Positions 31,787 through 62,067 of a DNA stretch of 64,000 nt are shown piece after piece. Within the stretch, counting starts at the first letter, position 1. Each line of letters opens with the position of its first letter. Made by a program: the position numbers and the translations under genes. The DNA is from an uncultured Algibacter sp. (GTDB lineage: Bacteria > Bacteroidota > Bacteroidia > Flavobacteriales > Flavobacteriaceae), in NCBI RefSeq assembly GCF_947495925.1, contig NZ_CANMAU010000002.1:620001-684000 (forward strand), written 5' to 3'. The notes beneath the pieces are model-generated. The model had not been told where the DNA came from, made no database searches, and saw nothing but the letters and a program-made list of their open reading frames with translations.

Positions 31787-31788
31787 TT

Positions 31789-32358: not shown

Positions 32359-32362
32359 TGTT

Positions 32363-36376: not shown

Positions 36377-37201
36377 ATGGGAAAAGGACCAAGAAATTAT
36401 AGTCAACTAACAAGAACTAGACTTTTCAGTTTATCAGGTAACCAATGTGCATTTCCAGGTTGCCCTATAACTTTTACAAACCCAGAGAACGATACAAATC
36501 TTTCAAATATATGTCATATTGCAGGTGCAGAAAAAGGAGGAGAAAGATATGATCCAAATATGACTGATAAAGAAAGAGCTAGTTATGAAAATTTAATTTT
36601 GCTATGCGCTAACCATCATCTTACAACTAATGATGTTTCAAAACACACGGTTTTATCATTAAAAAAGATGAAACAAGACCATGAGAAAGAAGTTTTGAAA
36701 AAAATTGGTGCGACAGATATTTTAAATAAATATCCTTCATCTTTAGCTTTGATTATTAATCACATCAGTTCAATAGACATAGAAAATGCCGATATGCTGA
36801 CTTCAACTAATATTTATAGCCCTGATAAAAAAATCACTTATAATGAAGTTGTGGTTCATAAACCAATTCTTGAAGAGTATAAAGTTTATCATGGAAAATT
36901 GAATAAAATTTACTCTGAAATTGAAAAGCAAGGTTCTTTTAAAAAAGAATTGCTTTTACAAAATATCAATAAATTATATTTAAAAGCCAAAGGAGAATTA
37001 CTTGGAATAGATACTAGTATTGAAAACATTCGAAAAAATGCAGATAATTTAATTGAACTTGTCGAAAAATATTTATGGGAATTATATGAAAAAAGCCCAA
37101 ATGCTAAAGAAGATATTCCTTTTGAAGCTGTAAATGTTGGTATGAAAATTATTATTGTTGATGCATTTGTTAGATGTAAAATTTTGGAGGAGCCTAAATG
37201 A
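36377..37201 (+). CDS. HNH nuclease effector of an ABC-three-component (ABC-3C) system
   Basis: This 274-residue protein has an N-terminal HNH fold. Zinc Cys are C24, C29, C46 and C77. The HNH residues are H47 (ICHIAG), N72 (YENLILLC) and H80-H81 (ANHH). The C-terminal half (about 130-274) is helical and would be the ABC-3C effector tail that docks to the ATPase. Its stop overlaps the next start (ATGA), which is typical of ABC-3C operons. The nuclease presumably cuts DNA when the ATPase senses invading DNA (inference). Confidence 0.85.
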   Translation: MGKGPRNYSQLTRTRLFSLSGNQCAFPGCPITFTNPENDTNLSNICHIAGAEKGGERYDPNMTDKERASYENLILLCANHHLTTNDVSKHTVLSLKKMKQDHEKEVLKKIGATDILNKYPSSLALIINHISSIDIENADMLTSTNIYSPDKKITYNEVVVHKPILEEYKVYHGKLNKIYSEIEKQGSFKKELLLQNINKLYLKAKGELLGIDTSIENIRKNADNLIELVEKYLWELYEKSPNAKEDIPFEAVNVGMKIIIVDAFVRCKILEEPK

Positions 37202-37428
37202 TTTTAAATAAAGACATAAATCCAGAACATTCACTATATTTTATAGGTTCGTTAATTATTAATGAACTGATAAGGTCTGAAGATAAAAATTCCGATTTCT
37301 TAGAAGTATATCGAGGAATTCGAGATAATCATCCAATTACAATGAATATATTTACTCTCAGTTTAGATTGGTTGTTTCTAAATGGAATTGTAGACATCAA
37401 AAAAGGAAAAATAGAAAAATGTTTCTAA
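37198..37428 (+). CDS. ABC-3C middle component
   Basis: This 76-residue protein (MILNKDINPEHSLYFIGSLI) has the winged-helix pattern of ABC-3C middle components, ending in GIVDIKKGKIEKCF. It overlaps the nuclease gene by 4 bp and the ATPase gene by 10 bp, so all three are translated together. It probably links effector and ATPase. Confidence 0.8.
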   Translation: MILNKDINPEHSLYFIGSLIINELIRSEDKNSDFLEVYRGIRDNHPITMNIFTLSLDWLFLNGIVDIKKGKIEKCF

Positions 37429-39116
37429 AGCTTTTAAAAATAGAAAATGATAAAAATATCATTAGAGATATTCCTTTTCATAAAGGAATAAATTTAATTG
37501 TAGATGAAACTAACTCAGATAATGAACAAGAATCTGGTAATAATGTAGGGAAAACAACTGTTATAAGGCTTATCGATTTTTGTCTTGGCGGCAAAGGAAA
37601 AAACATTTATCAAGATCAAGAATTTAAAAGCAAAGGAAACAATGTAATTGAAACCTTTCTTAAAGGAAACAACATTATAATTACTTTAGTTCTAAAAGAA
37701 GATTTAGATGTTCCTAAATCAAGAGAAATTACAATACGTAGAAATTTTTTAGCTAGAAAAGAGAAAATTCAAGAAATTGATGGAGAGCCATTCAATGATG
37801 AAAATTTCAAAAAAGAATTAAAGAAATTAATTTTTCATTCGGAGAAACTAAAACCAACTTTCAGACAACTTATCGCCAAAAATATTCGAGATGAAAAAAA
37901 CAGACTTGTTAATGCAGTAAAAGTATTGCATTTTAACACTACTGCTGATGAGTACGAACCATTATATCTTTTTTGGTTAGGTATCGATTTGGATGATGGA
38001 GACAAAAAGCAACGATTACTTTCACAAAAGAAAATTGAAGAGAACTTACAAAAAAGATTACGTAAAGAGAGTAATCTATCTCAGATTAAACAATCTTTAA
38101 CTGTTGTTAATCGTTCAATTTCAGAATTGGAAATTACCAAGGAGAATTTCAATATAAATGAAAATTATGATAATGATTTATCGTCATTGAATACTATAAA
38201 ATCTCAAATCAATAAAATTTCAACTGACATAAGTAAAACAGAAATAAGGAAAGAGCTCATTGAAGAAAGTAAATCCGAACTTGAAAAAGAATATTCTAAT
38301 ATTGATGCCTCACAGATTCAATTTTTATATGAAGAAGCTAAGATTTTAAATCCTTCAATCCAAAAGTCGTTTGAAGAAACATTGAATTTTCATAATTCAA
38401 TGCTTTCAGAAAAAATTAATTTCATAACTGAAGAACTTCCTTCACTAAATGAATCAATAATATCCAAGAGGAGAGAGCTTCAAGAATTATTAATTAACGA
38501 AGAAAAATTTACTACAAAGCTAAAAAAGTCAGGTGCAGTTTCAGAATTACAAGAAATAATTACAAGCCTTAATATAGCTTATGAAAAAAAAGGTAGTCTC
38601 GAAGAATTGAAAAGGTTATGGGAGAAATCGATGGGTAAATTGGATGAAATTTCTGATGATTTGGATGAAATCGATAAATCAATTACTGATAAAGACGGTT
38701 TAATACAAGAGAGAATATCCGAATTCAATAAGTATTTTTCATCAATTTCTAATAAATTATACGGAGAACAATTTGTTATGAGTTCTGATAAATCAGAAAA
38801 AGGCTATGAATTAAATATAACAAGCCTTAGTGGAAATTTGGGAACGGGAAAAAAGAAAGGGCAAATTGCTGCTTTTGATTTAGCATATATTCAATTTGCT
38901 GATTCGCTTGATATTGAATCCCTACATTTCATTATTCATGACCAGATAGAAACAGTACATGGAAATCAAATTTTGAATTTGATGACTACTATTATAAATG
39001 AAATAAATTGTCAGTATATAGCACCAGTTCTTAGGGATAAACTTCCGTCAGATATGAATATTTCCATTTATGAAGTATTAAAACTATCTCAAGAAAGTAA
39101 ATTATTTAAAATCTAG
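37419..39116 (+). CDS. ABC-3C SMC-like ATPase (DUF2326)
   Basis: I chose the start at 37419 (MFLKLLKIENDKN, 565 residues), because the further-upstream frame opening runs over the middle component. Walker A is GNNVGKTT (40-47). Long coiled coils fill about 170-450. The C-terminal DUF2326 region has a distinct signature (GLGTGKKKGQIA-like) and Walker B (LHFIIHDQIETVHG). It looks like a RecN/SMC-type sensor of DNA. The gene is the last of the three. Confidence 0.88.
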   Translation: MFLKLLKIENDKNIIRDIPFHKGINLIVDETNSDNEQESGNNVGKTTVIRLIDFCLGGKGKNIYQDQEFKSKGNNVIETFLKGNNIIITLVLKEDLDVPKSREITIRRNFLARKEKIQEIDGEPFNDENFKKELKKLIFHSEKLKPTFRQLIAKNIRDEKNRLVNAVKVLHFNTTADEYEPLYLFWLGIDLDDGDKKQRLLSQKKIEENLQKRLRKESNLSQIKQSLTVVNRSISELEITKENFNINENYDNDLSSLNTIKSQINKISTDISKTEIRKELIEESKSELEKEYSNIDASQIQFLYEEAKILNPSIQKSFEETLNFHNSMLSEKINFITEELPSLNESIISKRRELQELLINEEKFTTKLKKSGAVSELQEIITSLNIAYEKKGSLEELKRLWEKSMGKLDEISDDLDEIDKSITDKDGLIQERISEFNKYFSSISNKLYGEQFVMSSDKSEKGYELNITSLSGNLGTGKKKGQIAAFDLAYIQFADSLDIESLHFIIHDQIETVHGNQILNLMTTIINEINCQYIAPVLRDKLPSDMNISIYEVLKLSQESKLFKI

Positions 39117-42180: not shown

Positions 42181-43011
42181 TTATTCGTCAGCGCTATCCA
42201 TTTTAAGAAGTAAACCATTGGATAAATCATCCAGAAACTTGGTTCTGCTTATTTTTCGAGATTTGATTTCAGAGAATATTTTATAGAAATCCCCAAGGTC
42301 AAATTGTAATACTTTTTGCAGAGCTGTTGCTATTTCTTTTATATCGACGTTGCCATTATTGATTACACGATTATAATAAAGTGCATAGATTAGTTCTGTC
42401 AATGCAGATTTAGAAGATGTCCATTTTAGGTTTGTTTTATTAACTTCATCAGTAGATTTTCCATTCTTTATTTTATCAAGTCTAAATTTTAAGTAATTTA
42501 TAAAAAGCTTGTAGGCTCTAATCTTACCTAAGAGCATATCGCGAGGCGTACTAAAATCTGGATCTTGAAAATAAAATTTTGATGATGAGATTAAGAAGCT
42601 GTCTAAATGACCTCTTGTGTAATATTCCTTATCAAAGTGATGGAGTTTAGCTTCAACATATTGGTTGAAATCAATATTGTATAAATAGAACCGATTAAGC
42701 TTTCGAAGTTTTTTCCTTAAGGCTTTTTCTTGGTCTTGAACATTTGATTTTGGAAACTGAAGTTCAAAAGAACGTATTTCGGTGTAATAGATTAGTTGAA
42801 TTAAAGAGGTTTGTTTTTGATGTTTGAAGAATTCTACTTCCTTTGGAACTGAAACAAACCCCGTTTTAATAATAGCTTTTTTAAAATCATTTAATGTATT
42901 GCGCGATAGGATGATGATTTGACTAGACGTGTCAAGGATGGATAAGGAACTTTGTTCAATTTTTTCAAGTTCATTTGTGTAAATAGTATTGCGTAAGTTA
43001 AAATCCATCAC
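42181..43011 (-). CDS. rteC: RteC-like regulator of excision and transfer
   Basis: This 276-residue protein has the RteC family pattern. The N-terminal half is helical with IRSFELQFPKS and LRKKLRKLNRFYLYNIDFNQYVEAKLHH, and a conserved YYTRGHLDSF block follows. The C-terminal region (LTELIYALYYNRVINNGNVDIKEIATALQKVL) looks like a DNA-binding helix bundle. In CTnDOT, RteC switches on the excision genes. It has no RteA/RteB two-component pair beside it here. Confidence 0.85.
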   Translation of the reverse strand: MMDFNLRNTIYTNELEKIEQSSLSILDTSSQIIILSRNTLNDFKKAIIKTGFVSVPKEVEFFKHQKQTSLIQLIYYTEIRSFELQFPKSNVQDQEKALRKKLRKLNRFYLYNIDFNQYVEAKLHHFDKEYYTRGHLDSFLISSSKFYFQDPDFSTPRDMLLGKIRAYKLFINYLKFRLDKIKNGKSTDEVNKTNLKWTSSKSALTELIYALYYNRVINNGNVDIKEIATALQKVLQFDLGDFYKIFSEIKSRKISRTKFLDDLSNGLLLKMDSADE

Positions 43012-45189: not shown

Positions 45190-46527
45190 TTAAAAGTTAA
45201 TTACTTCCTCTAAAGCATCATCAGCCTCTTCATGGATAAAGTTAGCTTGATAGATTAAAGTCGTTTTTAAATCGCTATGTCTGTATAGTTTTTGAAGCAT
45301 TCTAGGATGAATCTTATTACCAGCGATATTTCCAAAACTATGTCGAGCAATATGGTTAGAAAGGTTTTTGTCTATTTCACAGATTTCACCAATTCGCTTT
45401 AAATATTTATTAAGCAGTTTAGTCGCGTTTCTAGTTTTTCTAAACACATCTTCAGTATCAGATTCATTTACATCTTTTAGAAATGGGAAGATAAATCCAT
45501 TGTTATCTTCTTTCTCTTTTTTATAATATTCTAATATAGCCTCTGCCTTTTCGGACACTTTAAGGCTTAGTGGTTTTTCATTCTTATTCATTACGTAGAA
45601 CAAACGACCATCTTTAAAGTCTGACCATTTCAATTTTATCGCATCCGAAATTCTTATTCCAGCAAAGTAAAAAGTAAATAGCCATACGTTTTGAGTGTGC
45701 CATATTGAGGTGTCAGGTTCTAATTCTAAAAGTTCAATCTGCTCTACCTCATTTACAATCAGACCTATCTTATGACTGGAGCCAATCCGAATTTTTTCTT
45801 TTTCACCACCGAAAGGATAAAATTTGGAATCTACTATACCATTTTTAATAGCCTTATTAAAAAGAGTACGGATAAATATGAGTTGATTAGTTATGGTACG
45901 TGTTTTTTGTTCAAGATAGACCGCACAAAAATCTTTATACCTATCCAAAAAAGATTCATTTATATCTTGAAACTTTAGGGACTTATTCTTTTTAAAGTGT
46001 TCAACAGAATCCATAAAAGTATGCTCACCTTTTCTTCCTTTACTAACTCGTGTCTTTCTACGTTCTTTAATTTCGTTAATAACTACATTTTTTTCTTGTG
46101 AGTTATTATGGTTTAAAAATTCTTCTAAGTTGTATAAAATTGATAATTCAGATTTTGCAACTGAAAATACATCACGTTCATATTTGCTTTTAATTCTATC
46201 TGAGGCAACATTGAAAAATGATTTAGAACCACCAGCACCTTTTAATTTTAACTTGACCTGCTTTGGTGTGATTTTGTCTTTAGAATCATAGTAAACGTCA
46301 TTTGCTTCAGTAAGTTTTTTTAGAAGATAGTTATTAAGTTTCTTGGCGTTTGGGTGTGTTTTTTTTACTCTTCCTGCATCTTTGTCCCAATCTTTTTCTA
46401 GCACATATTGTCCAAGCCATTTATAATTTGTCTTGTAATTTTCACTAATACGAATCGCAAGAGGGATAGTTTTATCTTTACGAATCATATTTTTCCGAAG
46501 TACTATTTTAATAATCGCCATAATCAC
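45190..46527 (-). CDS. Tyrosine recombinase (ICE integrase)
   Basis: This 445-residue protein has an arm-binding N-terminus, a SAM-like core-binding domain (about 165-230) and a catalytic domain. Catalytic residues are R292 (AGIRISD), K315 (MNKNEK), H392 and R395 (NHIARHSF), H417 (YRHSDLKTT) and Y426 (LIYQANF). The set is complete. Another start 6 bp inside (46521) is possible. It reads away from the tRNA-derived att site, which lies 165 bp upstream of its start. It should integrate the element into the tRNA-Met gene. Confidence 0.93.
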   Translation of the reverse strand: MIMAIIKIVLRKNMIRKDKTIPLAIRISENYKTNYKWLGQYVLEKDWDKDAGRVKKTHPNAKKLNNYLLKKLTEANDVYYDSKDKITPKQVKLKLKGAGGSKSFFNVASDRIKSKYERDVFSVAKSELSILYNLEEFLNHNNSQEKNVVINEIKERRKTRVSKGRKGEHTFMDSVEHFKKNKSLKFQDINESFLDRYKDFCAVYLEQKTRTITNQLIFIRTLFNKAIKNGIVDSKFYPFGGEKEKIRIGSSHKIGLIVNEVEQIELLELEPDTSIWHTQNVWLFTFYFAGIRISDAIKLKWSDFKDGRLFYVMNKNEKPLSLKVSEKAEAILEYYKKEKEDNNGFIFPFLKDVNESDTEDVFRKTRNATKLLNKYLKRIGEICEIDKNLSNHIARHSFGNIAGNKIHPRMLQKLYRHSDLKTTLIYQANFIHEEADDALEEVINF

Positions 46528-46692
46528 TTAACTTTGAATATAAAGATAATCAATATTAAAATAGTAAGTACAGAATAAGTACAGAATAATTTGATTTTAA
46601 TTGTGTTTAAATACTATCGTTTAAAATGTAAAGTACTGAATAACATAGGTTTTACTAGATAATGAAGTGTTTATTGTCTTGATACCTTTAAG

Positions 46693-46734
46693 CTCATAAC
46701 CCGAAGGTCACTGGTTCGAGTCCAGTTCCCGCTA
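46693..46734 (+). other. attR-like 3' part of a tRNA-Met(CAT) gene
   Basis: The sequence starts with the anticodon loop CTCATAA (46693-46699). It continues with the anticodon 3' arm CCCGA, the variable loop AGGTC, the T-arm ACTGG-TTCGAGT-CCAGT, and the acceptor strand TCCCGCT-A. The five bases 5' of the loop (TTAAG) cannot pair with CCCGA, and no D-arm is present. It is therefore only the 3' half, as left by integration into a tRNA. CAT may be elongator Met, initiator Met or Ile2; these cannot be told apart from the 3' half. Confidence 0.85.
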
Positions 46735-46747
46735 CTAAGGAAGATAA

Positions 46748-46777
46748 GGGTTTCAAGAAATTGAAACCCTTTTTTTT
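46748..46777 (+). terminator. Terminator of the split tRNA gene
   Basis: GGGTTTCAA (46748-46756), GAAA loop, TTGAAACCC (46761-46769), then T residues. It stands 13 bp after the tRNA fragment and is probably the original terminator of the tRNA gene. Confidence 0.85.
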
Positions 46778-46785
46778 ATTCAAGA

Positions 46786-47629
46786 TGATTAATACAAATA
46801 CAATACTTTTATTTTTTTTTAAGGTTAATGTTTTAGAAATTTCTCCTTTCTTTCTCTCCAGTTCTAAAATCAATCTAATGGAGAGTTACTAGTTCTTACT
46901 ATATTATTAGATTTCATATAGTTTATTTTTCAAATTACATTTTTAAAAAGGTCTAAATCTACCCCGATAGTATCTCCTTTTTATATCTCGTATGGTTAAA
47001 TTCTTTAGCTTTTATTTCGCAAAGGAATTGTTATTATTCCATGAAGTTAGTCGATTTCTTTAATACCTTTCTTGGGCTAAATGCACACCTATATCTAAGT
47101 TTAAATCATACTTATTCTCCTTTATAATCTTAATTTTTTAGATGATTATTGTAATTATCTACTTTTTAAACTAAGTTTTAGTGTTGTTATAGACAAGCTA
47201 TAAAAAAATAAATATGTGCTTTTGTTTTAAAAATAAGTTTACTGAACAAAAACTAAACATCCCCCTTATTCTAATGGACAAAATTACACTATTCATGCAT
47301 CTATTATTCTTTTAAACTACCTTAAAACACTCAGATATTGGGAAATTAACTTTAACTGTATTATGGTAAATAAAACTGAAATATTAAAAGTTATTTATTA
47401 GAAAAGCTTGTTCATAAAATAAGCCCATAGGAGTTCATATTTTTGATGATTTGCGCTCAGGTAGCCAAATGGAGAAATGTTTGTTTAGTTTTTATTGAGC
47501 GGACCCTTTGTTATCATGATTTCTAATTTGATAGTTTTATAGCAGATTAATTAATAAAAACTAAATTTTAAACTTGTTTTAGTATCAAATTATCATTGAT
47601 GCTAAATGCTAACTATCTAATTCATTATT
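46786..47629 (+). other. Long intergenic leader between the att site and susC
   Basis: This 844-bp, very AT-rich region contains no convincing ORF, no RNA gene and no clear repeat. It begins the chromosomal side of the junction and must hold the susC promoter, which I cannot place with confidence. Confidence 0.4.
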
Positions 47630-50600
47630 ATGAAAAGACAAAAACTAAAATTGATTAAGGCAAGCACCTTGCTTTTATTCCTAACCTTAGGAATAAGTTG
47701 GGTGGGTGCTCAAGAAACTATTTCGGGTGCGGTCACGGATGAACAAAAAATGCCTTTAGCAGGGGTATCTATTATTGTTGAAGGCACTAAGAATGGAGCG
47801 GTGACTGATTTTGATGGAAATTATTCCATTTCTGCGAATGTAGGGGAAACTTTATTATTCTCATATTTGGGTTTCAAAGATGTAAGACGTGTTGTTTCTG
47901 CGAATAACAAAACCATAAACCTATTTATGGTTGAAGATGCGGAAACTTTAAACGAAGTGGTGCTCGTAGGTTATGGAACACAAAAGAAAAAGGAAGTAAC
48001 TGGTGCTGTAGCTAAGGTGGTTGCTGAGGATCTGATTGAAGCGCCCGTTTCTGATATCGGAGCCGCAATTCAGGGAAAAGTTGCGGGTGTTAATGTTCAG
48101 GCTGGTAGTGGGCGTCCTGGTGAGGCTGCGAACATACAAATTCGTGGATTAGTATCTATAAATGGAGGGGAACCACTGTATGTTGTAGATAATATTCCAC
48201 AGGAGGGTAACCCAAATATTGCTCCAGAACAGATTGAATCTTTGGATATATTAAAGGATGGAGCCTCGGCATCTGTCTATGGGGTAAGAGCTGCTGGTGG
48301 TGTAATTTTAATTACTACTAAAAGAGGTAAAGCAGGTAAAATGCAGGTAGATTTTTCAACCTATTCTGGAATTCAAAATATTACTTCTGGAACACCTTTA
48401 ATGAACACTAATGAACATTTGTATAATAGAGAAACAACTGCTGAAGCTGCTGGAGCTGAGCCAATTACATTTTTTCTAGATGCGAATGCCTTGGATTGGG
48501 ATACTGATTTTATTGATGAAGTGACAAATAACAATGCTTTAATTCAGAATGTTACCCTCAATATTGCTGGAGGTGCAGAAAACTTAACTTTTAACTTTAA
48601 TACTAACTATTTTAAACAGGATGGTGTAATAATTGACTCTGGTTTTGATCGATTAACGAATCGACTTACAGGGCAATTTACTAAAGGTAAGTTTAAGGCG
48701 TTTGCTTCTATGAACATGACTAATGAGAATAGAACACAGGAACCATGGAACTTTTATGATTATGCCGTAGGTCAGCTACCTCATAGTCCACCATTTAGTG
48801 CTATAGAAACAAATGGTGACACGGTAATATTGAATGTTGAAAATGAAGTTTTTTATAGCTTTCTTTCTAGACAATTAGATAATGTTGATGAGAGAGAAAA
48901 CAATAGTTATGGACTTGCGCTTAATTTAGAATATGAACTTTTTGACGGTTTTAAATATAAACTTAATTTAGGGCGTAATCAGTTTACATACTTTAGAAAG
49001 TTTTTTCAGCCTCAATACTTAGCTTTAGATAGGAATGGTGATCTAAATGAGTCAGCGTCTGCTTTGAATGCACGCTTACAAGAAGATTACAATTTCTCTC
49101 AGAGAGAAACGATCGAGCATATTTTAAACTATAAAAAGTCATTTGGAAAACATAATTTCGACTTTTTGGCGGTGGCATCATACGAAAGATTTAAAAACCG
49201 TAGAGTAACCACAGCTGTAGAGTATGACGAAATAGCTTCAAATGATGTTCAAGTATTATCTGCAGGGGCAAATGGAATAAAACCAGTAGGACTAAATACA
49301 AATAATACCATTGCTGGAAAATTAGGAAGAATTCAATATAATTATGATGGTAAGTATTTAGTAACAGCTAGTTATAGAAGGGATGCTTCTTCAAGATTTC
49401 CTGAAACTAACAGGTATGCAGATTTTTATGGTTTCTCTGGGGGATGGAATGTAAGTGACGAAAATTGGTTTGATGTCGATGCTATTAGCAATTTGAAAAT
49501 TCGAGGAAGTTGGGCTGAAACTGGATTTAATGGTATTGGGGATTATAGATTTATTCCCATTATTGAAACAGGTGTGAATTATCCTTTTGGTCCCGATGAA
49601 GCAGTTATTTTTGGTCAAACGCAAAGAAGATATACTAATGCAGACATTCAGTGGGAAACAACTATATCAAGAAATATTGGTTTTGAGTTAGGTCTCTTTA
49701 ATAACAAATTAAACTTAGTTGCAGATTTTTATCGCAACGATAAAGAAGATATGTTAATTGACCAGCGTTTAGCCCCTTCTACAGGAACTTATCAGCCATT
49801 TGCAGAAAATAGCTATAATTCTATTCCTGTTAATGCTGGAAATATGGTTAATCAGGGTATTGAAATAGCATTGAGTTATAGAAATCAAATTGGTAAAGAT
49901 TTTAAATATAGCCTTTCTGGAACGTTTACAACTAACGACAATGAGGTAACAGAATTAGATGGTATTACTAGAGGTTTTGCAAATGGTTTTGTGAGTAGAG
50001 AAGCGACCACATTTCTTGCAATAGGGCGTGAGGCCGGAGCCTTCTTCTTATACCAACATGACGGTGTTATTAAGAGCGAAGAAGAATTAGCAGAGTATAA
50101 TATGCTAGATTTTTCAAGTGGGGCAGTAACTGCACCACAAGTGGGGGATATGCGTTATAAAGATACCGATAATGATGGTGATATTGACGACGAGGATAGA
50201 ATCTATGCAGGTTCTGGTATTCCAGAATATGAGGCTGGTTTGAATGTGAATTTAGAATATAAAAATTGGGATTTAGCAACTCAACTTTATTATTCTAGTG
50301 GGGCAGAAGTGTATAATGGAGCTAAGAATATAGCCTATAATAGAGGGCGTCACTTAGATCAAACTTTTCAGTGGACACCGCAAAATCCGGATTCTAATAT
50401 TCCGGTATTTAGGCAAACAGAAGGACACACCAATAATAGGGGAGCGTCGACTTACTTTTTAGAAGATGGTACCTACCTTAGAATTAGAACGCTTTCTATT
50501 GGTTACACTATCCCTGGGTTGCAAGACACTGGAATAGAGAAATTTAGAGTATATTTATCTTCATTAAACCCGGTGACATTTACTAAATATACAGGTTACG

Positions 50601-50701
50601 ATCCCGAAGTTGGAGGAGATGGCCTATTTACAAGAGGAATAGATAATGGTAATTACCCAGTATCACGTCAGTTTTTACTTGGACTTCAATTAAGTTTCTA
50701 A
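47630..50701 (+). CDS. SusC/RagA-type TonB-dependent transporter
   Basis: This 1,023-residue protein has a signal peptide (LGISWVGAQE). An N-terminal carboxypeptidase-regulatory-like domain (ISGAVTDEQKMPLAGVSI, about 30-110) precedes a plug domain with VLVGYGTQKKKEVTGAV. A large beta-barrel follows, ending in aromatic LQLSF. It is the first gene of a susC-susD-lipoprotein operon. It imports oligosaccharides with its SusD partner. The nearby GH117 gene suggests red-algal galactan sugars, though the substrate itself is not shown. Confidence 0.95.
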   Translation: MKRQKLKLIKASTLLLFLTLGISWVGAQETISGAVTDEQKMPLAGVSIIVEGTKNGAVTDFDGNYSISANVGETLLFSYLGFKDVRRVVSANNKTINLFMVEDAETLNEVVLVGYGTQKKKEVTGAVAKVVAEDLIEAPVSDIGAAIQGKVAGVNVQAGSGRPGEAANIQIRGLVSINGGEPLYVVDNIPQEGNPNIAPEQIESLDILKDGASASVYGVRAAGGVILITTKRGKAGKMQVDFSTYSGIQNITSGTPLMNTNEHLYNRETTAEAAGAEPITFFLDANALDWDTDFIDEVTNNNALIQNVTLNIAGGAENLTFNFNTNYFKQDGVIIDSGFDRLTNRLTGQFTKGKFKAFASMNMTNENRTQEPWNFYDYAVGQLPHSPPFSAIETNGDTVILNVENEVFYSFLSRQLDNVDERENNSYGLALNLEYELFDGFKYKLNLGRNQFTYFRKFFQPQYLALDRNGDLNESASALNARLQEDYNFSQRETIEHILNYKKSFGKHNFDFLAVASYERFKNRRVTTAVEYDEIASNDVQVLSAGANGIKPVGLNTNNTIAGKLGRIQYNYDGKYLVTASYRRDASSRFPETNRYADFYGFSGGWNVSDENWFDVDAISNLKIRGSWAETGFNGIGDYRFIPIIETGVNYPFGPDEAVIFGQTQRRYTNADIQWETTISRNIGFELGLFNNKLNLVADFYRNDKEDMLIDQRLAPSTGTYQPFAENSYNSIPVNAGNMVNQGIEIALSYRNQIGKDFKYSLSGTFTTNDNEVTELDGITRGFANGFVSREATTFLAIGREAGAFFLYQHDGVIKSEEELAEYNMLDFSSGAVTAPQVGDMRYKDTDNDGDIDDEDRIYAGSGIPEYEAGLNVNLEYKNWDLATQLYYSSGAEVYNGAKNIAYNRGRHLDQTFQWTPQNPDSNIPVFRQTEGHTNNRGASTYFLEDGTYLRIRTLSIGYTIPGLQDTGIEKFRVYLSSLNPVTFTKYTGYDPEVGGDGLFTRGIDNGNYPVSRQFLLGLQLSF

Positions 50702-50711
50702 AAAAAAAGTT

Positions 50712-52433
50712 ATGAAAACAATAAATAATAATTTAATTAAGCTTACACTGCTTTTTGCTCTTGTTTTTACAGGCTGTAACGAAAGTGTACTTTTAGATGA
50801 GCAAAATCCAAATTTTATCACACCAGATACTTTTTGGAAAACCGAAAACCAATTCGAAGCTGCATTGGCAACCGTATATGGTGCTTTGCAGTATCGATCA
50901 ATTAGCGGTGCAGAATTAGTACAAGAATTTGTTTTAGGTGATATTGGTGGTACAGAACCTTGGTATAGACCGTATGCTTTTAGAAATTTAGCGTTTAATG
51001 ATGGAATCATTCATGTGGTAGATAAATGGGAAGAACTCTATGTGGGCATTTTTAGAGCCAACCAGGTTATTTCAAATCTTGAAGATATTGATGAAGATAT
51101 TGTTTCTGATGAAGCAAAAGCCTTGATGGAAGGACAAGCACGGTTTTTAAGAGCATTCTTTTATTTTCAATTGGCACACACATATGGTGGAGGAATGATT
51201 CATACTGATGTGGCAGTATCCAGAGAAGATTTTAATAAGCCTTTTTCTAGTATTGAAGAAATCAGTAACACGATGATTATACCGGACTTAGAATTTGCAA
51301 AAGATAATTTACCACAGACATGGGATGGTAATGATATTGGTAGAGCTACTTGGGGAGCAGCTACAACTATGTTAGGTAAGGTATATTTATATAATAAAGA
51401 ATGGAATCAAGCTGCATCTTTATTTAAAGAAGTTATTGATTCTGATGTTTATGCCCTTACAAGAGATATTACTGATAATTTTTGGCATGAAAATGAATTT
51501 AATGAAGAGTCTATTCTGGAGGTAAACTATTCTTTTGATCTTAATCCCGGAAACTCGGGGTTTCCAGTTGATGATACTCCATTTCAAACAGGCTCAGAAT
51601 CTACAACGCTTTCTACGGAAATTGGACGTTTAGGGGTAGGAGGATTTAATACTGTTATTCCAACCTATAATCTACATGAAATGATGGTGTATGATGAGGT
51701 GGATCCTGATAATTCAGTTAATGATGATAATCTTCAGTCCAAAAGAATGTTTGGATCAATTGCTCCCATTGACGGTGAAGGATTATGGTATGGTGAACCA
51801 TATGGTGCTGTTCCTGGATGGGGAGGTGGCCAAAGTGCTTATGTTAAGAAACATTCTAACTGGTACCATCTTTCTGCAGAGCCAGCAAACGGACGTGGTG
51901 GTATTAATTTTAGACATATTCGCTATGCAGATGTTTTATTAATGTATGCCGAAGCTATTATTAATGATCGTGGAGATTATATGACAGCTATGGAGTATGT
52001 TGATATGGTAAGAAGCCGTGCAGGAGTTTATACTTTACAACAATACATGGATATGAACGATGGCAAGTTTCCACAATTCCATATTAGCAAGCAAATACAT
52101 GGAGATCATCCTTTAGTCATTCCAAGTTCAGAAACGGTTTTAACCCATATACAACGTGTTGAGAGAGCTTTGGAACTTTGTTTTGAAGGTCATAGATGGA
52201 AAGATTTAGTGCGTTGGGATATTGTAAAAGAAGTTTTTGATGAGCTCAATGAGGATGAAATTTGGCGTCGGGCGAATTTTGACTCAATCAGTGGTCCTGA
52301 TCAAGATTTTATTATACCAGGATTTGCAAGACCAGATTTTGCTGTAGCAGCTAAAGTTTATGATCCTGCTCAACACAATTATTTCCCAATACCAAGTGCG
52401 GAAATACAGTCAAATGAGATTTTTAACGATTAA
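50712..52433 (+). CDS. SusD/RagB-type surface glycan-binding lipoprotein
   Basis: This 573-residue protein has the lipoprotein signal LVFTGCNE. Its TPR-rich SusD domain includes TFWKTENQFEAALATVYGAL and the C-terminal YRRLELCFEGHRWKDLVRW-like segment. The signal places it on the cell surface, capping the SusC barrel. It begins 10 bp after susC. Confidence 0.95.
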   Translation: MKTINNNLIKLTLLFALVFTGCNESVLLDEQNPNFITPDTFWKTENQFEAALATVYGALQYRSISGAELVQEFVLGDIGGTEPWYRPYAFRNLAFNDGIIHVVDKWEELYVGIFRANQVISNLEDIDEDIVSDEAKALMEGQARFLRAFFYFQLAHTYGGGMIHTDVAVSREDFNKPFSSIEEISNTMIIPDLEFAKDNLPQTWDGNDIGRATWGAATTMLGKVYLYNKEWNQAASLFKEVIDSDVYALTRDITDNFWHENEFNEESILEVNYSFDLNPGNSGFPVDDTPFQTGSESTTLSTEIGRLGVGGFNTVIPTYNLHEMMVYDEVDPDNSVNDDNLQSKRMFGSIAPIDGEGLWYGEPYGAVPGWGGGQSAYVKKHSNWYHLSAEPANGRGGINFRHIRYADVLLMYAEAIINDRGDYMTAMEYVDMVRSRAGVYTLQQYMDMNDGKFPQFHISKQIHGDHPLVIPSSETVLTHIQRVERALELCFEGHRWKDLVRWDIVKEVFDELNEDEIWRRANFDSISGPDQDFIIPGFARPDFAVAAKVYDPAQHNYFPIPSAEIQSNEIFND

Positions 52434-52444
52434 AAATTACTATT

Positions 52445-54046
52445 ATGAAAAATTTTAAATATATAACTATGTTCTTTATAGCGACATTACTTTTTGTTGG
52501 CTGTGGAGAAGATCGGACGGTTGATACAGTTGATACTAATCACAGGATAATAGTGACTTCTGAAATGGATTATGAAAACACCATAGCTATTGCAGGACAC
52601 ATTGATTTTGGTGATATTTCTCGTGGTGTTGTTTCTAGAACTTGGACTTTACCAGAAAATAGCACTAGTATTCAGGGAGAAGATGGTAATACATCATCAA
52701 AAGATGTCATCAAAGGATTTTTTTATAAGCCTGGGGTGTATAATGTAACCTTAAATCAAACGTTTAGTGATAATGTTTACCCTAATGATGATAGTACTAT
52801 GCCAATTAATGGTCGAGAATTAGATACGACCATTGTTGTAACAGTTCTGGATTCGATTAAATCTGTTTTAAAAATATATCATTTAAATGATGATGGTACT
52901 ACTGGAGCGGAGTTAGTCCTTGCTGATAATGCAGAAAATGAGGTTACTGCTAGTAAAACACTTAGGCTTACCTATACGGCAACTGGTGAACCAGAAAGTG
53001 CTATTTGGACTTCAGAAGGAGGTAAACCTGATAGAATTCCGACCAAGGAAGATGAAAATGAAGTAGATATGAGATTCAATAAGTTGGGAACTTGGGATTT
53101 AGATTTTCTTGCAACAAGATTTCGACCTGAAGATGGAGACACACTTTCATTTAAAAGACTTATAAAGGTTATTCCTTCTACCGAGCCTGTTGTTTTAGAG
53201 CGTGTTTCTGAAAAGGATGATGGCAAAGTTGCTTTGGAATTTAGTAGAGAAATGGATGAGTCTACTGTAAATGCAGATGATTTTTCTGTAAGAATAGAAA
53301 ATGATGGCAATATTATTAATCCATTAATTTTAGGAGCTACATTGGATCCAGATGAAGGTAATATTATATTACTTGAGTTAGATAATGAAAAACTATATTA
53401 TGATGATGAAGTATTTGTAAGTTACACTCCAGGTAACCTTAGGACTGCCGATTTAGTTGACGCGACCGCAATTACTGACGCAGGTGGAGGTCCAATCGAT
53501 TATAGAAGTGTTATTGATATATTTGCTACTATTGATTTTGATCCTAGTATGGAGGATTTCACTGCCGACGAAAGTTGGAACCCACTGGGTTGGGGTAGTC
53601 CTTGGGATAAATTTAATAGAAAGGTCAGTCGAGATTTAAGTCGTACTGGAGATAATAGTCTTTATGTGGAGTTTGAACCCTTTGGAGGAATGATTGTTGA
53701 GCGTGGAGATGATGAAGGAACTCCAATAACTATTCCTTATGAAAAAGGAAAAACCTATGAGTTAGGTTATTGGATGTATGTTGTGGAAGGTGTAGCTAAT
53801 GTTCCAGGTAGTACTAAAGCTTCTGATATTAGACTTTATGCTTCTTCTTTTGCTTTTGAGCTTGTGCCTACTATTTTTAGTCCAACTACAACTACTGGGC
53901 AATGGGTTTATCAAAGTAAAATATTTAAAGCCTCTTTTTCAGATAGTGTAAGTCTACTTTTTAGAGGTTTTAATGAACATAATCCAGATACACTAAAGTT
54001 TTATATAGACGATTTTTCTCTTACGGAACTTCCGTTTAGACCTTAA
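52445..54046 (+). CDS. Surface glycan-binding-like lipoprotein (PKD-like, SusE/F position)
   Basis: This 533-residue protein has the signal LLFVGCGED. An Ig/PKD-like domain (about 30-135, ISRGVVSRTWTLPENS) follows, then further beta-sandwich domains and a C-terminal carbohydrate-binding-like domain (about 360-530) ending in KFYIDDFSLTELP, typical of CBM4/9-like folds. Position after SusD and a lipid anchor point to a surface glycan-binding protein. No catalytic residues are visible. Confidence 0.75.
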   Translation: MKNFKYITMFFIATLLFVGCGEDRTVDTVDTNHRIIVTSEMDYENTIAIAGHIDFGDISRGVVSRTWTLPENSTSIQGEDGNTSSKDVIKGFFYKPGVYNVTLNQTFSDNVYPNDDSTMPINGRELDTTIVVTVLDSIKSVLKIYHLNDDGTTGAELVLADNAENEVTASKTLRLTYTATGEPESAIWTSEGGKPDRIPTKEDENEVDMRFNKLGTWDLDFLATRFRPEDGDTLSFKRLIKVIPSTEPVVLERVSEKDDGKVALEFSREMDESTVNADDFSVRIENDGNIINPLILGATLDPDEGNIILLELDNEKLYYDDEVFVSYTPGNLRTADLVDATAITDAGGGPIDYRSVIDIFATIDFDPSMEDFTADESWNPLGWGSPWDKFNRKVSRDLSRTGDNSLYVEFEPFGGMIVERGDDEGTPITIPYEKGKTYELGYWMYVVEGVANVPGSTKASDIRLYASSFAFELVPTIFSPTTTTGQWVYQSKIFKASFSDSVSLLFRGFNEHNPDTLKFYIDDFSLTELPFRP

Positions 54047-54073
54047 AAATATAGTTTGAGTTTAATTTGAAAA

Positions 54074-54107
54074 GGGTCTGTCTTATTTTATGGCAGACTC
54101 TTTTTTT
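54074..54107 (+). terminator. Terminator of the susCD operon
   Basis: GGGTCTGTC (54074-54082) pairs with GGCAGACTC (54092-54100) with G-U pairs, followed by a T-run. Confidence 0.85.
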
Positions 54108-54384
54108 CGTCTTTATATTTAAGAATATGATACGTCCTAATGCGAGCAAATTTGATCAAGGAAAAAGTCAAGTAGAGATTATTGAATTTTTCTTTTTAAT
54201 TGCATAATTTATTGGTGTCTGGAATACTAACTGAAAGTTAAAACATCAAGACACTAATATCGAGTTTGATGCCGAAGATGAGTGCTGAATATTGGGTGTC
54301 AACCATGGAGCGCCATCAAATAATTAGGGCTACAGTCTTAAAGTGATTATCTGAGAAACAAACCAGTATAAGGGATAATGTCTT
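54108..54384. other. Intergenic gap before the regulator
   Basis: About 277 bp with no ORF longer than 26 codons, and no repeat that I recognise. It separates the susCD operon from the convergent regulator gene. Confidence 0.35.
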
Positions 54385-55971
54385 TTATATCGTTGCCATA
54401 AAGTCTACAAGATTCATTCCTTTTTGTAGTTTTAGTTTTTTTCTTAATCTGTAGCGGGATGTATGGGTGCTTTCAATCGTGATGCCGAGTAATGACGCCA
54501 TTTCTTTACTAGAAAAACCTAGTTTAACCAGTGCGCATAGTTTTAAATCTGTTTGGCCTAAATCGGGATATTTCTTTCTAATTTTATTATAAAAATTTTG
54601 ATTTACAGAGGTAAATCTGGCTTCAAATTCTTCCCAATTGCCACCAGGAGAATTTTGAAAACCACTAATCATACTATGGATTGCCCGTTCATCTACACCA
54701 TCACTTTTAGAAATACTTTCTTTAAGTTTAACTATAAATTCTTCTTTTTCGATTAATTGTAATGCAGAAGCTGTGAGTTCTCTGTTTTTAAGTTTCATGA
54801 CTTCATTCGTCTTTTCTTTTTCCAACCTATGTTTTCTTCTTAAGTTTCTAAAAAAAAGAATGCCATACATTAATAGAAAAACTAAAACCACAGCCATTAA
54901 AATGTTCTGTAAAAAACCAATTCTTTTTTGATCTTCTAGTTTCTCAATTTGTGCTTCCTTGAGTAGTGCTTTTTCCTTTTCTTTCTGTAGTCTATATCGG
55001 TCTTTTATTTCAAAAAGATGTTTGTTATTCTTGCTCCTTCTTCCAAATATTTTTTCATTTAATTCTTGAGCCTTGTTTTTATAATGAAGAGCCTCTTGGT
55101 AGTCACCTTTATTAAAATATAGTTCATATAATTTTTCATAATTAAATTGTGTATATCCCAAATGTTGATTGTACATTTTTGAAAATCTAAGAGATTCTTT
55201 ATAATGCTTGGCACTTTCTTCTACATTACCTTTTAATTTATAAACCTCTGCAATTAGAAAGTAGATTACGGTTAAGTATGATGGGTTTTCCCTCTGAAAA
55301 AAAGTCTTGGCTTCGCTTAATTCGTTCAGGGCTTTATCGTAATTCCCACCAACAACCGCATTGTAATAGGCTTTCTCCGATTCTACGTAATATGATTTTT
55401 CATTTGAATTTATTTTATTTAGAGAAATCTGACAACTATCTAGGTAGACTTTTGTCATTATTAAATCATTATTTACGCGATAGCAATTGACCAAAGCAAA
55501 ATAGTTACTTACTAAATACCCCATGCCTATTTTCTTTTGCTCAACTAATTTTTTCTTGAGTTTAAGGGACCTGTTGAAATAATTTAAAGATTCTTCTTCT
55601 CTTCTATAAGAATTATATAACCACCCCAACTCTTGGTAGATTCTGGCTTTTGAAACATCATCGTTTGATAAATCAGCAAGAATTAAAGCATTCCAATATC
55701 CATCGTACGATTTTCCGTAATCTAGCACGTTATCATACAATGCCGAAAGATGGCATAAACTATTAATAAGGTTTATTGTGTCTTTTTCTTTGGTATAATG
55801 ATCAATTCCTTTCTTTAGATAATAAATAGCACTATCTAAATTTTTAGCTGTTAGTAGTTCTGCTTTGTCAATATATTTGTTGGTACTATAAGGTTCTTGT
55901 GCATTGGTATTCAGGCACATTAATAAAATAATAGATTCAAACAGTTTTTGCAAAATAAAACTCTTCTTCAT
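54385..55971 (-). CDS. TPR sensor with membrane segment and LuxR-type HTH
   Basis: This 528-residue protein has a signal-like start and six or so TPR repeats (about 30-320). One membrane helix follows (LQNILMAVVLVFLLMYGILFF, about 350-370), then a coiled coil and a C-terminal LuxR-type HTH (KFGFSSKEMASLLGITIESTHTSRYRLRKKL-like). It likely senses a sugar signal in the periplasm and regulates the adjacent glycan genes on both sides. It is a one-component alternative to hybrid two-component PUL regulators. Confidence 0.85.
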   Translation of the reverse strand: MKKSFILQKLFESIILLMCLNTNAQEPYSTNKYIDKAELLTAKNLDSAIYYLKKGIDHYTKEKDTINLINSLCHLSALYDNVLDYGKSYDGYWNALILADLSNDDVSKARIYQELGWLYNSYRREEESLNYFNRSLKLKKKLVEQKKIGMGYLVSNYFALVNCYRVNNDLIMTKVYLDSCQISLNKINSNEKSYYVESEKAYYNAVVGGNYDKALNELSEAKTFFQRENPSYLTVIYFLIAEVYKLKGNVEESAKHYKESLRFSKMYNQHLGYTQFNYEKLYELYFNKGDYQEALHYKNKAQELNEKIFGRRSKNNKHLFEIKDRYRLQKEKEKALLKEAQIEKLEDQKRIGFLQNILMAVVLVFLLMYGILFFRNLRRKHRLEKEKTNEVMKLKNRELTASALQLIEKEEFIVKLKESISKSDGVDERAIHSMISGFQNSPGGNWEEFEARFTSVNQNFYNKIRKKYPDLGQTDLKLCALVKLGFSSKEMASLLGITIESTHTSRYRLRKKLKLQKGMNLVDFMATI

Positions 55972-56474
55972 TTCCTATAAATTTTGTTTAAATAGCTTTT
56001 GTACTAGACATCGTACATTTTAATACTGAACAAGCTACAAAGTATTTAAAACATTACCAAAATTATATTTGATTAGTTCTGATCTATTGAAATATAGGAA
56101 GATTTTCAAAATGTTCAGTTTTTATTCATTTTTAAAATCAGGTATTTTGCGGTTAATAATTCATATTTGCTAATATATTAATGTTATAATTTGGAATATG
56201 GTAATTTAAGTTTTGTTTTTTATTTAAAAAGAAAAAGATTAGGAGTTTGTTAATATTTTTGATAAAAACAAAGAAGTGAGTTTTGAAAAGAATAATGGTA
56301 AATAACTCATCAAGAAATATTCATTAAGATATGATACAAATTAAATATTATGTGTTGTCGAATTATTAATGAGTAATAGATTTATGCAAAAGAGCTAAAC
56401 AAATAAATATGAAGGGCTGAATTCTGTTGATTTTGCTTCTCATTAAAAATTAAAAATTAAAAATAATAATTAAA
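55972..56474. other. Divergent intergenic region, regulator and GH117
   Basis: 503 bp between divergently transcribed genes, very AT-rich. It is the expected place for the promoters of both genes and for operators of the LuxR-type regulator. I see no clear palindromic operator. Confidence 0.4.
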
Positions 56475-57695
56475 ATGGTTTTAAAAATGAAAATATTCTT
56501 GCAACTATGCTTAGTAGCGTTTCTGGTTTCGTGTAATTCTGACACCAAAGTTAGTTCATCTAGTAATGTTGAAACTTCGGAGTCTCCGGAGATTAGTCAA
56601 GAACAAATAGATCACTTAGGTATAACAGATGTGAACTACCTTAGTGCGGCTTCAAAAAGAGCTCTTAAGTGGCCAACAGATTTGGGTAATGATTGGTTTA
56701 TTGAATTTGATAATCTAAAACCATTAAAAGGTGATTTAGCTTATGAAGAAGGTGTTGTGCGTAGAGATCCTAGTGCTATGATAAAAGAAAATGGTAAATA
56801 CTATGTATGGTATTCTAAAAGTACTGGAGTTTGTCAAGGTTTTGGTGGTGATGTAGAAAATGAAAAAGTATTCCCATGGGATCGTTGCGATATTTGGTAT
56901 GCCACATCAGAAGATGGTGAAACATGGAAAGAGGAAGGTTTAGCTGTTGGAAGAGGAGAGAAAGGAGAGTATGATGATAGATCTGTTTTTACAGTTGAAA
57001 TAATGAAATACGATGACAAATATTATTTGTGCTACCAGACTGTGAAGTCACCTTATACGGTACGGGTAAAGAATCAAATTGGATTAGCTTGGTCTAATTC
57101 ACCAGATGGGCCTTGGATAAAGAGTAAAGAACCTATACTTAAGCCTGCCGACAATGGTATTTGGAAGGGAGATAAACAAGATAGGTTTGCCGTTGAAAAG
57201 AAAGGTGATTTTGATAGTCATAAGGTTCATGATCCTTGTATAATCCCATATAAAGGTAAATTTTATCTTTACTATAAAGGAGAACAAATGGGTGAGAAAA
57301 TCACTTTTGGGGGTAGACAAATACGTCATGGTGTTGCCATAGCAGATAAGCCGGAAGGCCCTTATGTTAAGTCAAAATATAATCCTATTAGTAATAGTGG
57401 ACATGAAATTTGTGTATGGCCATATAATGGTGGTATTGCTGCTCTTATTACAACTGATGGTCCGGAAAAAAACACTATCCAATGGGCTCCAGATGGAATA
57501 AACTTTGAAATCATGTCTGTAATTCCTGGAGTGACTGCTCATGCTATAGGCCTTAATAGAGATGCAGATAACGAAAAAGATCCTACTGAAATTTTGCGAT
57601 GGGGATTATCTCATGTATACAATAGTTGGAACTACCAGAGTATAATGAGTTATACCTCGAAAAGAAAGGTGGAGCACCGAGCCAAAGGAGAATAA
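56475..57695 (+). CDS. GH117-like exo-hydrolase for anhydro-galacto-oligosaccharides
   Basis: This 406-residue lipoprotein (LVAFLVSCNS) has a five-bladed propeller fold pattern. Candidate catalytic residues match the GH117 set: D98 (VRRDPSAM), D253 (KVHDPC) and H310/E311 (NSGHEI). GH117 enzymes such as AhgA release 3,6-anhydro-L-galactose from neoagaro-oligosaccharides; other clades have unsettled activity. It would finish depolymerisation of agar or a related red-algal galactan in the periplasm or at the surface. An alternative start at 56487 gives MKIFLQLCL. A terminator follows. Confidence 0.82.
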   Translation: MVLKMKIFLQLCLVAFLVSCNSDTKVSSSSNVETSESPEISQEQIDHLGITDVNYLSAASKRALKWPTDLGNDWFIEFDNLKPLKGDLAYEEGVVRRDPSAMIKENGKYYVWYSKSTGVCQGFGGDVENEKVFPWDRCDIWYATSEDGETWKEEGLAVGRGEKGEYDDRSVFTVEIMKYDDKYYLCYQTVKSPYTVRVKNQIGLAWSNSPDGPWIKSKEPILKPADNGIWKGDKQDRFAVEKKGDFDSHKVHDPCIIPYKGKFYLYYKGEQMGEKITFGGRQIRHGVAIADKPEGPYVKSKYNPISNSGHEICVWPYNGGIAALITTDGPEKNTIQWAPDGINFEIMSVIPGVTAHAIGLNRDADNEKDPTEILRWGLSHVYNSWNYQSIMSYTSKRKVEHRAKGE

Positions 57696-57724
57696 CTTAA
57701 AAATTGAATTGGTTAATAGAAGAG

Positions 57725-57759
57725 AGAGGCAGTGTCTGAAATAGGGTACTGCCTCTTTT
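57725..57759 (+). terminator. Terminator after the GH117 gene
   Basis: AGAGGCAGT (57725-57733) pairs with ACTGCCTCT (57748-57756), followed by T residues. Confidence 0.85.
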
Positions 57760-58103
57760 GGTATTCTTTAGATTTTATAATTAATGACTTATGCTGATAC
57801 ATTTAATGTTATAGCAAAATTTTGATTGGATTAATGAATGGGTGCTTCCATTTAAATAGAATTTACATTTAAGGTTTGTATTCGCCAAAACGTAGAATTG
57901 TTGGTGTAACTAAAGAGGTGTTTCTCTTTTATTATCGATGTTTTCGTTTATTAGAGGAAGAACAAAAATGGTCTTATTCTTTCTTTTTTAAAACCGTTTT
58001 TTAATTATAAACAACAGTGGTTTATTAATATTTATTGGGTTGTATATGACTAGAAGAAGCTCACAGTCTTATAATGTAAGGGAAAATAAAGTAAATAAAG
58101 TAA
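57760..58103. other. Intergenic region between GH117 and DUF1080
   Basis: About 340 AT-rich bases between convergent genes. There is a small AAAGAG/CTCTTT hairpin at 57912-57929, possibly a second terminator. I see no gene. Confidence 0.4.
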
Positions 58104-58132
58104 GAGGCATAGTCGTAAGTCAACCATGCCTC
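58104..58132 (-). terminator. Terminator after the DUF1080 gene
   Basis: On the minus strand, GAGGCAT and ATGCCTC (58126-58132 and 58104-58110) form a 7-bp stem, followed by T-rich sequence. Confidence 0.55.
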
Positions 58133-58200
58133 AAACAACAACAACAAACTAAACTAAATCTATTACTATATTTAAATGATATTTTTATGACTTTTAAGAT

Positions 58201-59103
58201 TTAAAACAATTTTTGCTGTTCTTGAGTAAGCGAATCTATTTCTCGAATTTTGATATCTTTGAAAAATATTTCGGCAGCTTCACTTTGCAGTTGAATTTTC
58301 CCTTTTGTAAGAGGAATGTCTTTACCGTTTTCATCAATATATCTCGAGTTTCTTAAAATCATAACAACTTCTCCGTTTACTATATGCAGACTTTTGTCTT
58401 CAAAACAGTATAGGTCAAGTGTATTCCATTCATCTTCTGCATTCTCATAGTTACCACTTCGTAAGCAGTAATTTCTATATGGGCTATCCATACTTAAAGT
58501 AATAAAATCCTGAGATTCATGTGCCAAAGGATCTAAAACAGATTCTGGTTTATAGGCCCGTATGTCTATTGCCGAATTTGCCTGACTCCAAAAATCACCA
58601 GTGTGCCCCTCCATAATTTGAAATTCTTGAGAAAGCATCCAAGATCTCCAATATTCTACTGCCATAGGTCCAACAGAGTGGTATAGGATTCCTGAGTCTT
58701 TCAGTAAATCTTTTCTATAAGCCCATTTTTTATCTCCCCACTTGTATTTTAGCTGAAAATGATAATTTGAGTATTCTTTTTTAGTAATTAAGCAACCGTA
58801 ATATTCTCCAGTGTTCTTAATTATGGTATTGCCGTTTTCTTGAAAAGTTGTAAAAACGTTATATGAGGTATTGTTTAAGCCAATTGGAGGGATTACTTTT
58901 CCTTGTTCATCTTTTGGTGCAGAACCGTCATAACCAGGTTGGTGTTTATAACTTAGGTAGTTGTCCCAATTGCTTAAATCGGAATCGATTAACTCCTCCC
59001 AGTTATATACTTCATCATTATTTTGTGTTTTCTCATTTTTAGTTTGAGAACAAGAAATTAGAACTAAAAGAATTAGGGGTAAAATAATCTTGTAAAATTT
59101 CAT
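58201..59103 (-). CDS. DUF1080 lipoprotein (3-keto-disaccharide hydrolase fold)
   Basis: This 300-residue protein has the lipoprotein signal LVLISCSQ. A concanavalin-like DUF1080 domain follows, with YYGCLITKKEYSNYHFQLKYKWG, DSGILYHS, a hydrophobic QIMEGHTGDFW and the end segment GKIQLQSEAAEIFFKDIKIREI. Members cleave or bind glycosides, some acting on 3-keto sugars. It probably belongs to sugar use, but is not tied to the GH117 operon. Confidence 0.85.
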   Translation of the reverse strand: MKFYKIILPLILLVLISCSQTKNEKTQNNDEVYNWEELIDSDLSNWDNYLSYKHQPGYDGSAPKDEQGKVIPPIGLNNTSYNVFTTFQENGNTIIKNTGEYYGCLITKKEYSNYHFQLKYKWGDKKWAYRKDLLKDSGILYHSVGPMAVEYWRSWMLSQEFQIMEGHTGDFWSQANSAIDIRAYKPESVLDPLAHESQDFITLSMDSPYRNYCLRSGNYENAEDEWNTLDLYCFEDKSLHIVNGEVVMILRNSRYIDENGKDIPLTKGKIQLQSEAAEIFFKDIKIREIDSLTQEQQKLF

Positions 59104-59430
59104 AATTAATATGTTTTGGTTTTAAAAAGGGTTTCTTTGAATTTTTATTTAAATTCAATAGTAATTTTCTAGTATCTGAAGGTGATTAAGTCAAGCAAAA
59201 AATAAAATATGCTTAATTAAAAATCGGTTTCAAGTAATATTACAAAATAATACATTTTTCATTGGCTTTTGTAAGCAGCTTAAATAAAATGTCTAGTTTT
59301 TATTTAGGTAGTAGTAGGTTGATTTATAATGAGTTGGATTGTTTTATTATGTGTGTTCAGTTTTTATTGAGGAATTTTCAACCGCTAGTAAACATAAAAT
59401 ATTTTAGATTCGTGGAAACAACATTATTAT
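59104..59430. other. Divergent promoter region
   Basis: 327 bp, AT-rich, between the divergent DUF1080 and VOC genes. The sequence AGTTTTTATTGAG (near 59359) recurs around 47490 upstream of susC, but the meaning is uncertain. Confidence 0.35.
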
Positions 59431-59979: not shown

Positions 59980-60060
59980 TATTTATAGAATTCATTTTTA
60001 CCTAAAGATCTTAGTTATTGATGAGTTTTAAAAACTTTTAGAGTAATAAACGTTCAATTA

Positions 60061-60096
60061 AGAAAAGGTTTCAAGCAATTGAAACCTTTTCTTTTT
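60061..60096 (+). terminator. Terminator after the VOC gene
   Basis: A perfect 14-bp stem (60061-60074 with 60079-60092) around a GCAA loop, followed by T residues. Its core GGTTTCAAGCAATTGAAACC resembles the tRNA terminator at 46748. Confidence 0.85.
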
Positions 60097-62062: not shown

Positions 62063-62067
62063 GTTTT

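Follow-up and report, generated by a model that had tools for sequence, protein, structure and literature searches.

The stretch of DNA studied here (the window, meaning the whole 64,000 nucleotides analysed) comes from an uncultured Algibacter sp. and corresponds to C2:620001-684000 of its genome assembly, G000 (3.84 Mb, 39 contigs). At 46692-46737, on the plus strand, it holds the 3' half of a tRNA(CAT) gene, orphaned beside a tyrosine integrase gene, and we read this half as the right attachment site (attR) of an integrative and conjugative element (ICE). The half begins with CTCATAACCCGAAGGTCACTGG at 46693 and runs in the order CTCATAA, CCCGA, AGGTC, T arm, acceptor strand and CTA. Behind it a terminator-like hairpin, with a T run, lies at 46741-46776 (plus strand; inverted repeat 46741-46756 / 46761-46776) and is taken as the host tRNA gene's own. 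ARAGORN found no complete tRNA in the 64,000 nucleotides. The observation in an initial annotation made from the letters alone, that only a 3' half starting with CTCATAA is present and that a terminator stands directly behind it, is confirmed.

That annotation also predicted an intact tRNA-Met(CAT) gene to the left of the window with its 3' end facing the element. In fact, ARAGORN places such a gene on the same contig and strand about 19.5 kb left of the window (L005:6399-6472 = C2:600398-600471), its 3' end pointing to the element and element DNA behind it. The right copy, 46692-46737, is identical to the 3' part of this gene. When the junction sequence is searched against its own genome, the second copy appears at C2:600429 with 88% identity over 83 bases, hairpin included. 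The exact direct repeat is 46 bp long (one G before the loop, 42 nucleotides of tRNA and CTA); the annotated 42-bp repeat does exist, 42 nucleotides being its tRNA part, and only its length has to be corrected. Because the 46-bp match has an E-value of 3.1e-17 for G000, a chance origin of the repeat is excluded. From loop start to loop start the distance is 66,264 bp. The hairpins behind both copies, that of the left end being the element-side counterpart (L005:6483-6508, behind the intact tRNA), have TTTCAAGAAATTGAAA in common and differ in their outer stems. A partial match to the hairpin occurs elsewhere in G000, at C2:307306, and thus the hairpin by itself is no proof.

Between the two repeat copies lies what its gene content predicts to be a 66-kb ICE of the Bacteroidota type. 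Its portion within the window is 1-46691 and, from the positions of the repeat copies, it continues 19.6 kb leftward to C2:600429. The tyrosine integrase (45190-46527, minus strand, 445 amino acids) starts 165 bp from the loop and carries the Arm-DNA-bind_5, Phage_int_SAM_5 and Phage_integrase domains. Its matches to solved structures are weak and fall on XerC/XerD-like recombinases; GIRISD, HIAR, RHSD and a Tyr near the end, read by eye, are what we take to be the catalytic residues. Further inside lie genes for a regulator of the RteC family (42181-43011, minus; PF09357, E 1e-66), a relaxase of the MobB family (20018-21046, plus; NF041495, 408.5 bits against a cut-off of 200), a type IV coupling protein (21048-22640, plus; PF02534, PF10412, PF12696) and a block of conjugation genes (28575-34765, minus) encoding TraN-, TraM- and TraK-like proteins and a TraG-like ATPase (DUF4138/TraN, PF12508 TraM, TIGR03781 TraK below its cut-off, PF19044 TraG). 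The element thus has the relaxase, coupling protein and type IV secretion ATPase by which an ICE is recognized, and the integrase and these transfer genes are all open frames.

Inside each end lies a paired arm site, GTACAGAATAAGTACAGAAT, with an 11-bp period: one at 46568-46587 (plus strand), 125 bp left of the right loop start, and its twin at C2:600522-600541, 93 bp right of the left loop start. This 20-bp pattern, with up to 2 mismatches allowed, matches exactly twice in 3.84 Mb, once inside each end, and a control pattern matches nowhere. The paired GTACAGAAT motifs of these sites are presumably where the integrase binds. We consider it very probable (about 0.94) that window 46692-46737 is the attR of a 66-kb ICE, formed when the element's tyrosine integrase recombined a circular attachment site (attP) with the initiator-type tRNA(CAT) gene of the host, at the anticodon loop.

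Relatives of the integrase and the probable unity of the element

The integrase has many relatives. A match at E <= 1e-80 was present in 52 of 397 genomes of the family, and 42 loci came from scanning named genomes. We analysed 69 loci, 30 from the first search and 39 from the second, some places being in both; L165-L167, with 24% identity, stood outside this set. A tRNA(CAT) 3' half starting at the anticodon loop is found in 61 of the 69 loci, 151-308 bp from the integrase start, and in 61 of 63 once five distant integrases and one partial one are set aside. The eight loci lacking the half are these five (41-44% identity), the partial L164, L139 and L162. Four of the distant integrases (L088-L091) adjoin tRNA-Leu-like 3' parts that include the anticodon loop, as read by eye, and the fifth (L087) adjoins a tRNA-like 3' end only. 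The nearest relatives, 96-99% identical, come from Algibacter, Flavivirga, Wocania, Tamlana and Olleya.

These relatives raise the question of whether 66 kb is one element. In six genomes attR is followed by the left-end arm sites of another element, paired at L065, L069, L081 and L084 (G226, G144, G238 and G248; imperfectly in G144) and single in G095 (L063) and G331 (L067). The tRNA gene thus collects elements in tandem, and the locus is a hotspot. The 66 kb could therefore be a composite of nested or tandem elements, or a relic unable to leave, and the orphan halves near other repeat types in the same-genus genome G001 point the same way. Against this, G000 holds just two copies of the tRNA half and two arm sites, one of each per end; the interior is free of further arm sites and tRNA halves, and the open frames of the integrase and transfer genes do not suggest decay. 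We hold a composite or a relic to be unlikely, and a single ICE remains our preferred reading.

The orphan halves of G001 (L049 and L050, at G001:C9:121086 and 157804) have the same loop start and stand near GAACACGTTT-like and CGTATACGG-like repeats. Since G001 has no match to the window's integrase at E <= 1e-80, other integrases may use the same loop. Another row of sites is found in G024:C2 (L056:5221-7350): integrase, intact tRNA-Leu(TAG), a second tRNA-Leu-like 3' end, arm-like repeats, a tRNA-Met half and arm-like repeats again. It resembles an undivided attP or stacked elements.

Position of the crossover

The window's own two copies are identical over all 46 bp and do not discriminate between loop and T arm. 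Judged from these copies, the same element could have entered the same tRNA gene through the T arm or the acceptor end, and it would be happenstance that the copied sequence reaches 5' to the loop. There is a precedent: ICECleSHZ29 and its relatives (in Chryseobacterium and others), Bacteroidota ICEs with Tra proteins whose circular form the authors detected, also sit in a tRNA-Met-CAT gene and use its 3' end (PMC12561888); their repeat letters do not match the 46-bp repeat.

The ends of related elements discriminate where the window does not. We aligned 56 pairs of intact and orphan copies (42 initiator, 14 elongator), of which 55 are distinct, G323 and G447 being one genome and both counted; no second pairing was made for L145, at the location of G124, or for the named twins of G095, G116, G226 and G267. 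A count by hand puts 44 of the 56 pairs on a single contig in the correct order, with about 18 to 160 kb between the copies. Identity between the ends begins at loop nucleotide 1 in all 56: nucleotides 1-17 show no mismatch in 952 cells (100% identity), and across the 31 nucleotides on the left side 434 of 1736 cells agree (25%, the level of chance). Across T-arm positions 18-34 there are 16 mismatches, confined to 6 pairs. In four of these (G116, G342, G426 and the elongator pair of G431, all on one contig and in the right order) the changes are paired, so that both ends carry different T stems that are each internally matched; in G436 and G449 they are unpaired and could be drift. G342 moreover has a second intact initiator gene, and this carries the T stem of the orphan, as would be expected if the orphan were the host's and the element's T arm had gone to the restored gene. 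T stems that differ between the two ends and yet pair internally exclude the T arm.

A further case comes from Galbibacter orientalis, where L139, a relative sitting in a protein gene, has arm sites and no tRNA half at its right end. At G431:C1:1294052, 27.5 kb to the left, a tRNA half is followed by arm sites and preceded by non-tRNA sequence. When the outer flanks are joined they form one open frame of 341 codons spanning the junction, and the joined protein matches Pfam Phenol_MetA_deg (E 2.3e-06, residues 115-246), the join falling at residue 134/135 by our own count. The contiguous identity of this site and the element at the junction is CTC only, that is loop nucleotides 1-3. This is a single case of a secondary site, and it puts the exchange at the loop. 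The branch of elements that targets elongator tRNA retains the loop and not the T arm. Taken together, these comparisons place the crossover 5' of the T arm, no further than about 17-19 bp from the first base of the loop, and the loop CTCATAA (46693-46699, plus strand) is the putative 7-bp overlap region for strand exchange. The initial annotation had suggested that the anticodon loop, and not the T arm, holds the crossover, and its interpretation is supported; a crossover in the T arm or acceptor end is very improbable.

A reading in which the fragment arose by chance or by gene duplication and has nothing to do with the integrase, an idea to which the similar hairpins elsewhere in G000 might lend something, can practically be dismissed in view of the exact repeat, the integrase 165 bp away, the identical arm sites inside both ends only and the recurrence of the arrangement in 61 of 69 integrase loci.

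Several points weigh against our main explanation. Twelve of the 56 pairs lie on different contigs or at an implausible distance, and some are perhaps not the two ends of one element. Position -1 has the same base in 39 of the 56 pairs, which leaves the 5' limit uncertain by one base. Paired GTACAGAAT arms are common and not universal, being absent upstream of the integrase in L083, L085 and L086. At L162, in the Flammeovirgaceae metagenome-assembled genome UBA7330, the half beside the integrase is a 5' and not a 3' one; it lies upstream of the integrase, is initiator-like and ends at GGGCTC. This could be a reversed arrangement or an assembly fault. An empty site at the exact locus was sought in close relatives and none was found. 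The attR/attP sequence shows only weak dyad symmetry about the anticodon: in 37 distinct sites a score of 0.44 at the loop centre compares with 0.41 and 0.39 at centres nearby, and higher values occur at the T-loop centre (0.74) and two other places (0.60 and 0.55). Dyad symmetry was hence not used as evidence.

Target tRNA, mechanism and known systems

Initiator tRNAs leave position 1:72 unpaired and have G-C pairs at the base of the anticodon stem. The intact tRNA has C1 opposite T72 and GGG/CCC at the anticodon-stem base, and these initiator (formylmethionine, fMet) features, read from sequence, refine the tRNA-Met(CAT) label. A search of G000 with the tRNA and its upstream stretch gave one intact copy and the orphan, and thus this appears to be the only initiator gene in an assembly that is 99.98% complete. 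Another, different tRNA-Met gene of G000 is found at L122:1475-1549 (G000:C3:254219-254302). Its T stem is purely G/C and its T loop, ATCGTGC, is unusual, the usual one being TTCRANY.

A tree of 59 integrases (omitting the partial L164, eight rows with duplicate proteins and L160, which the program dropped) places the 11 elongator-targeting rows together amid initiator-targeting rows, a grouping that recurs in 90% of the bootstrap trees and has modest support (89/53); several rows, one of the 11 included, are on long branches. The clade has initiator tRNA genes as its targets, with what appears to be a single switch to elongator tRNA-Met. Core nucleotides 2-11 and 13-17 are common to both tRNA types and the T arm is not, which fits a recognition centred on the anticodon arm.

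We envision the following mechanism. The attP core of the circular form, whose excision we infer, would hold a tRNA copy from the loop to just beyond the 3' end and then the element's own terminator, in the order arm site, CTTTAAG-CTCATAACCCGAAGG, element terminator, arm site. The integrase would bind the paired GTACAGAAT arms and the core half-sites flanking the loop, cleave there and recombine attP with the anticodon loop of the host tRNA gene. The left end would then become a chimeric complete tRNA gene whose promoter and 5' half are the host's and whose 3' half and terminator are the element's. The 3' half that the host gene had before would be stranded with its terminator at the right end, beside the integrase gene. 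The present copy may still be mobile.

On balance we favour a broader reading, in which this flavobacterial clade reads the anticodon and variable arm common to both Met tRNA genes, resides for the most part in the initiator gene and on one occasion changed to the elongator gene, its crossover staying in place. With every integration the host's initiator gene, the only one found here, would be rebuilt into a chimera that has the T arm and terminator of the element, making the element co-owner of an essential translation gene.

Williams reportedly described islands at anticodon-centred tRNA subsites in 2002. CTnDOT-type conjugative transposons of Bacteroides resemble the window's element by gene families, both having an RteC-family regulator together with TraG/K/M/N-type proteins. 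They differ in that CTnDOT's chromosomal target is not known to be a tRNA gene, whereas the target here is one. In the Islander database, 2083 of 3919 islands are anticodon-centred (the 'A' subsite; PMC4383910). These share with the window's element a tyrosine integrase, a tRNA split at the anticodon loop, a gene restored at one end and a 3' fragment displaced on the same strand at the other, to which the relatives compared above would add the crossover itself. There is no difference in principle, and what is particular here is the use of initiator and elongator methionine tRNA genes as targets. The ICEMh1-like ICEs of Pasteurellaceae likewise leave one functional and one partial tRNA, in tRNA-Leu, their direct repeat being said to constitute the anticodon loop (PMC6861422), but they have their own 11-bp repeat, XerC/XerD-like recombinases and another tRNA, host phylum and set of conjugation genes. 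The integrase of the archaeal virus SSV1 makes cuts that border the anticodon loop, its 7-bp loop and stem matching a canonical core site (reviewed in PMC8371274). Strand exchange bordering the loop as overlap region would be a common trait of these two unrelated hosts and elements, although the SSV1 cuts were measured and ours are deduced.

The integration mechanism is therefore already known and of an ordinary kind; it is located unusually precisely here by comparing related elements. A literature search, largely without subscription journals, found no description of this integrase clade, only general papers on tRNA subsites and other ICEs, and nothing joining initiator tRNA, ICE and attachment site. 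The natural T-stem differences at the two ends show that all of the sequence 3' of the anticodon loop is swapped by these integrases, a detail that is usually assumed and that the comparison makes visible. Time and again, then, elements supply an essential tRNA gene with a new 3' half. The apparent one-time switch between tRNAs that are alike in the anticodon arm and not in the T arm offers a small, testable model for target change by integrases, and the common site could be a landing site for flavobacterial genetics.

Flanks and other gene blocks

The right flank, 46738-64000, is taken as chromosome. Its outer part, 60425-64000, matches contig C9 of G001 with 76-84% identity, and C9 also holds the two orphan tRNA halves mentioned above; for 46738-60424 no such match was found in the stretches compared. 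In G001 the left flank adjoins the intact tRNA on contig C2 and the matching right flank on C9 stops about 34 kb from the nearer orphan half, and thus the G001 site also looks occupied. In G034 the match to the right of the tRNA covers 51 bp only.

The first two genes inside the left end, which are adjacent (L005:6635-9990 = C2:600634-603989), encode proteins with matches to the OloA (E 8e-65) and OloB (E 3.5e-149) defence models, and efflux-pump genes lie near that end. The products of two genes at window 36377-39116 have matches to the PDC-M68A (E 3.1e-30) and PDC-M68B (E 1.7e-49) candidate defence models, their Pfam matches being CTD10 and DUF2326. A four-gene block at 11401-17552 (minus strand) encodes two proteins of 1057 and 467 amino acids without a Pfam match; of this pair, the 1057-residue protein, and not the 467-residue one, has weak matches to defence models.
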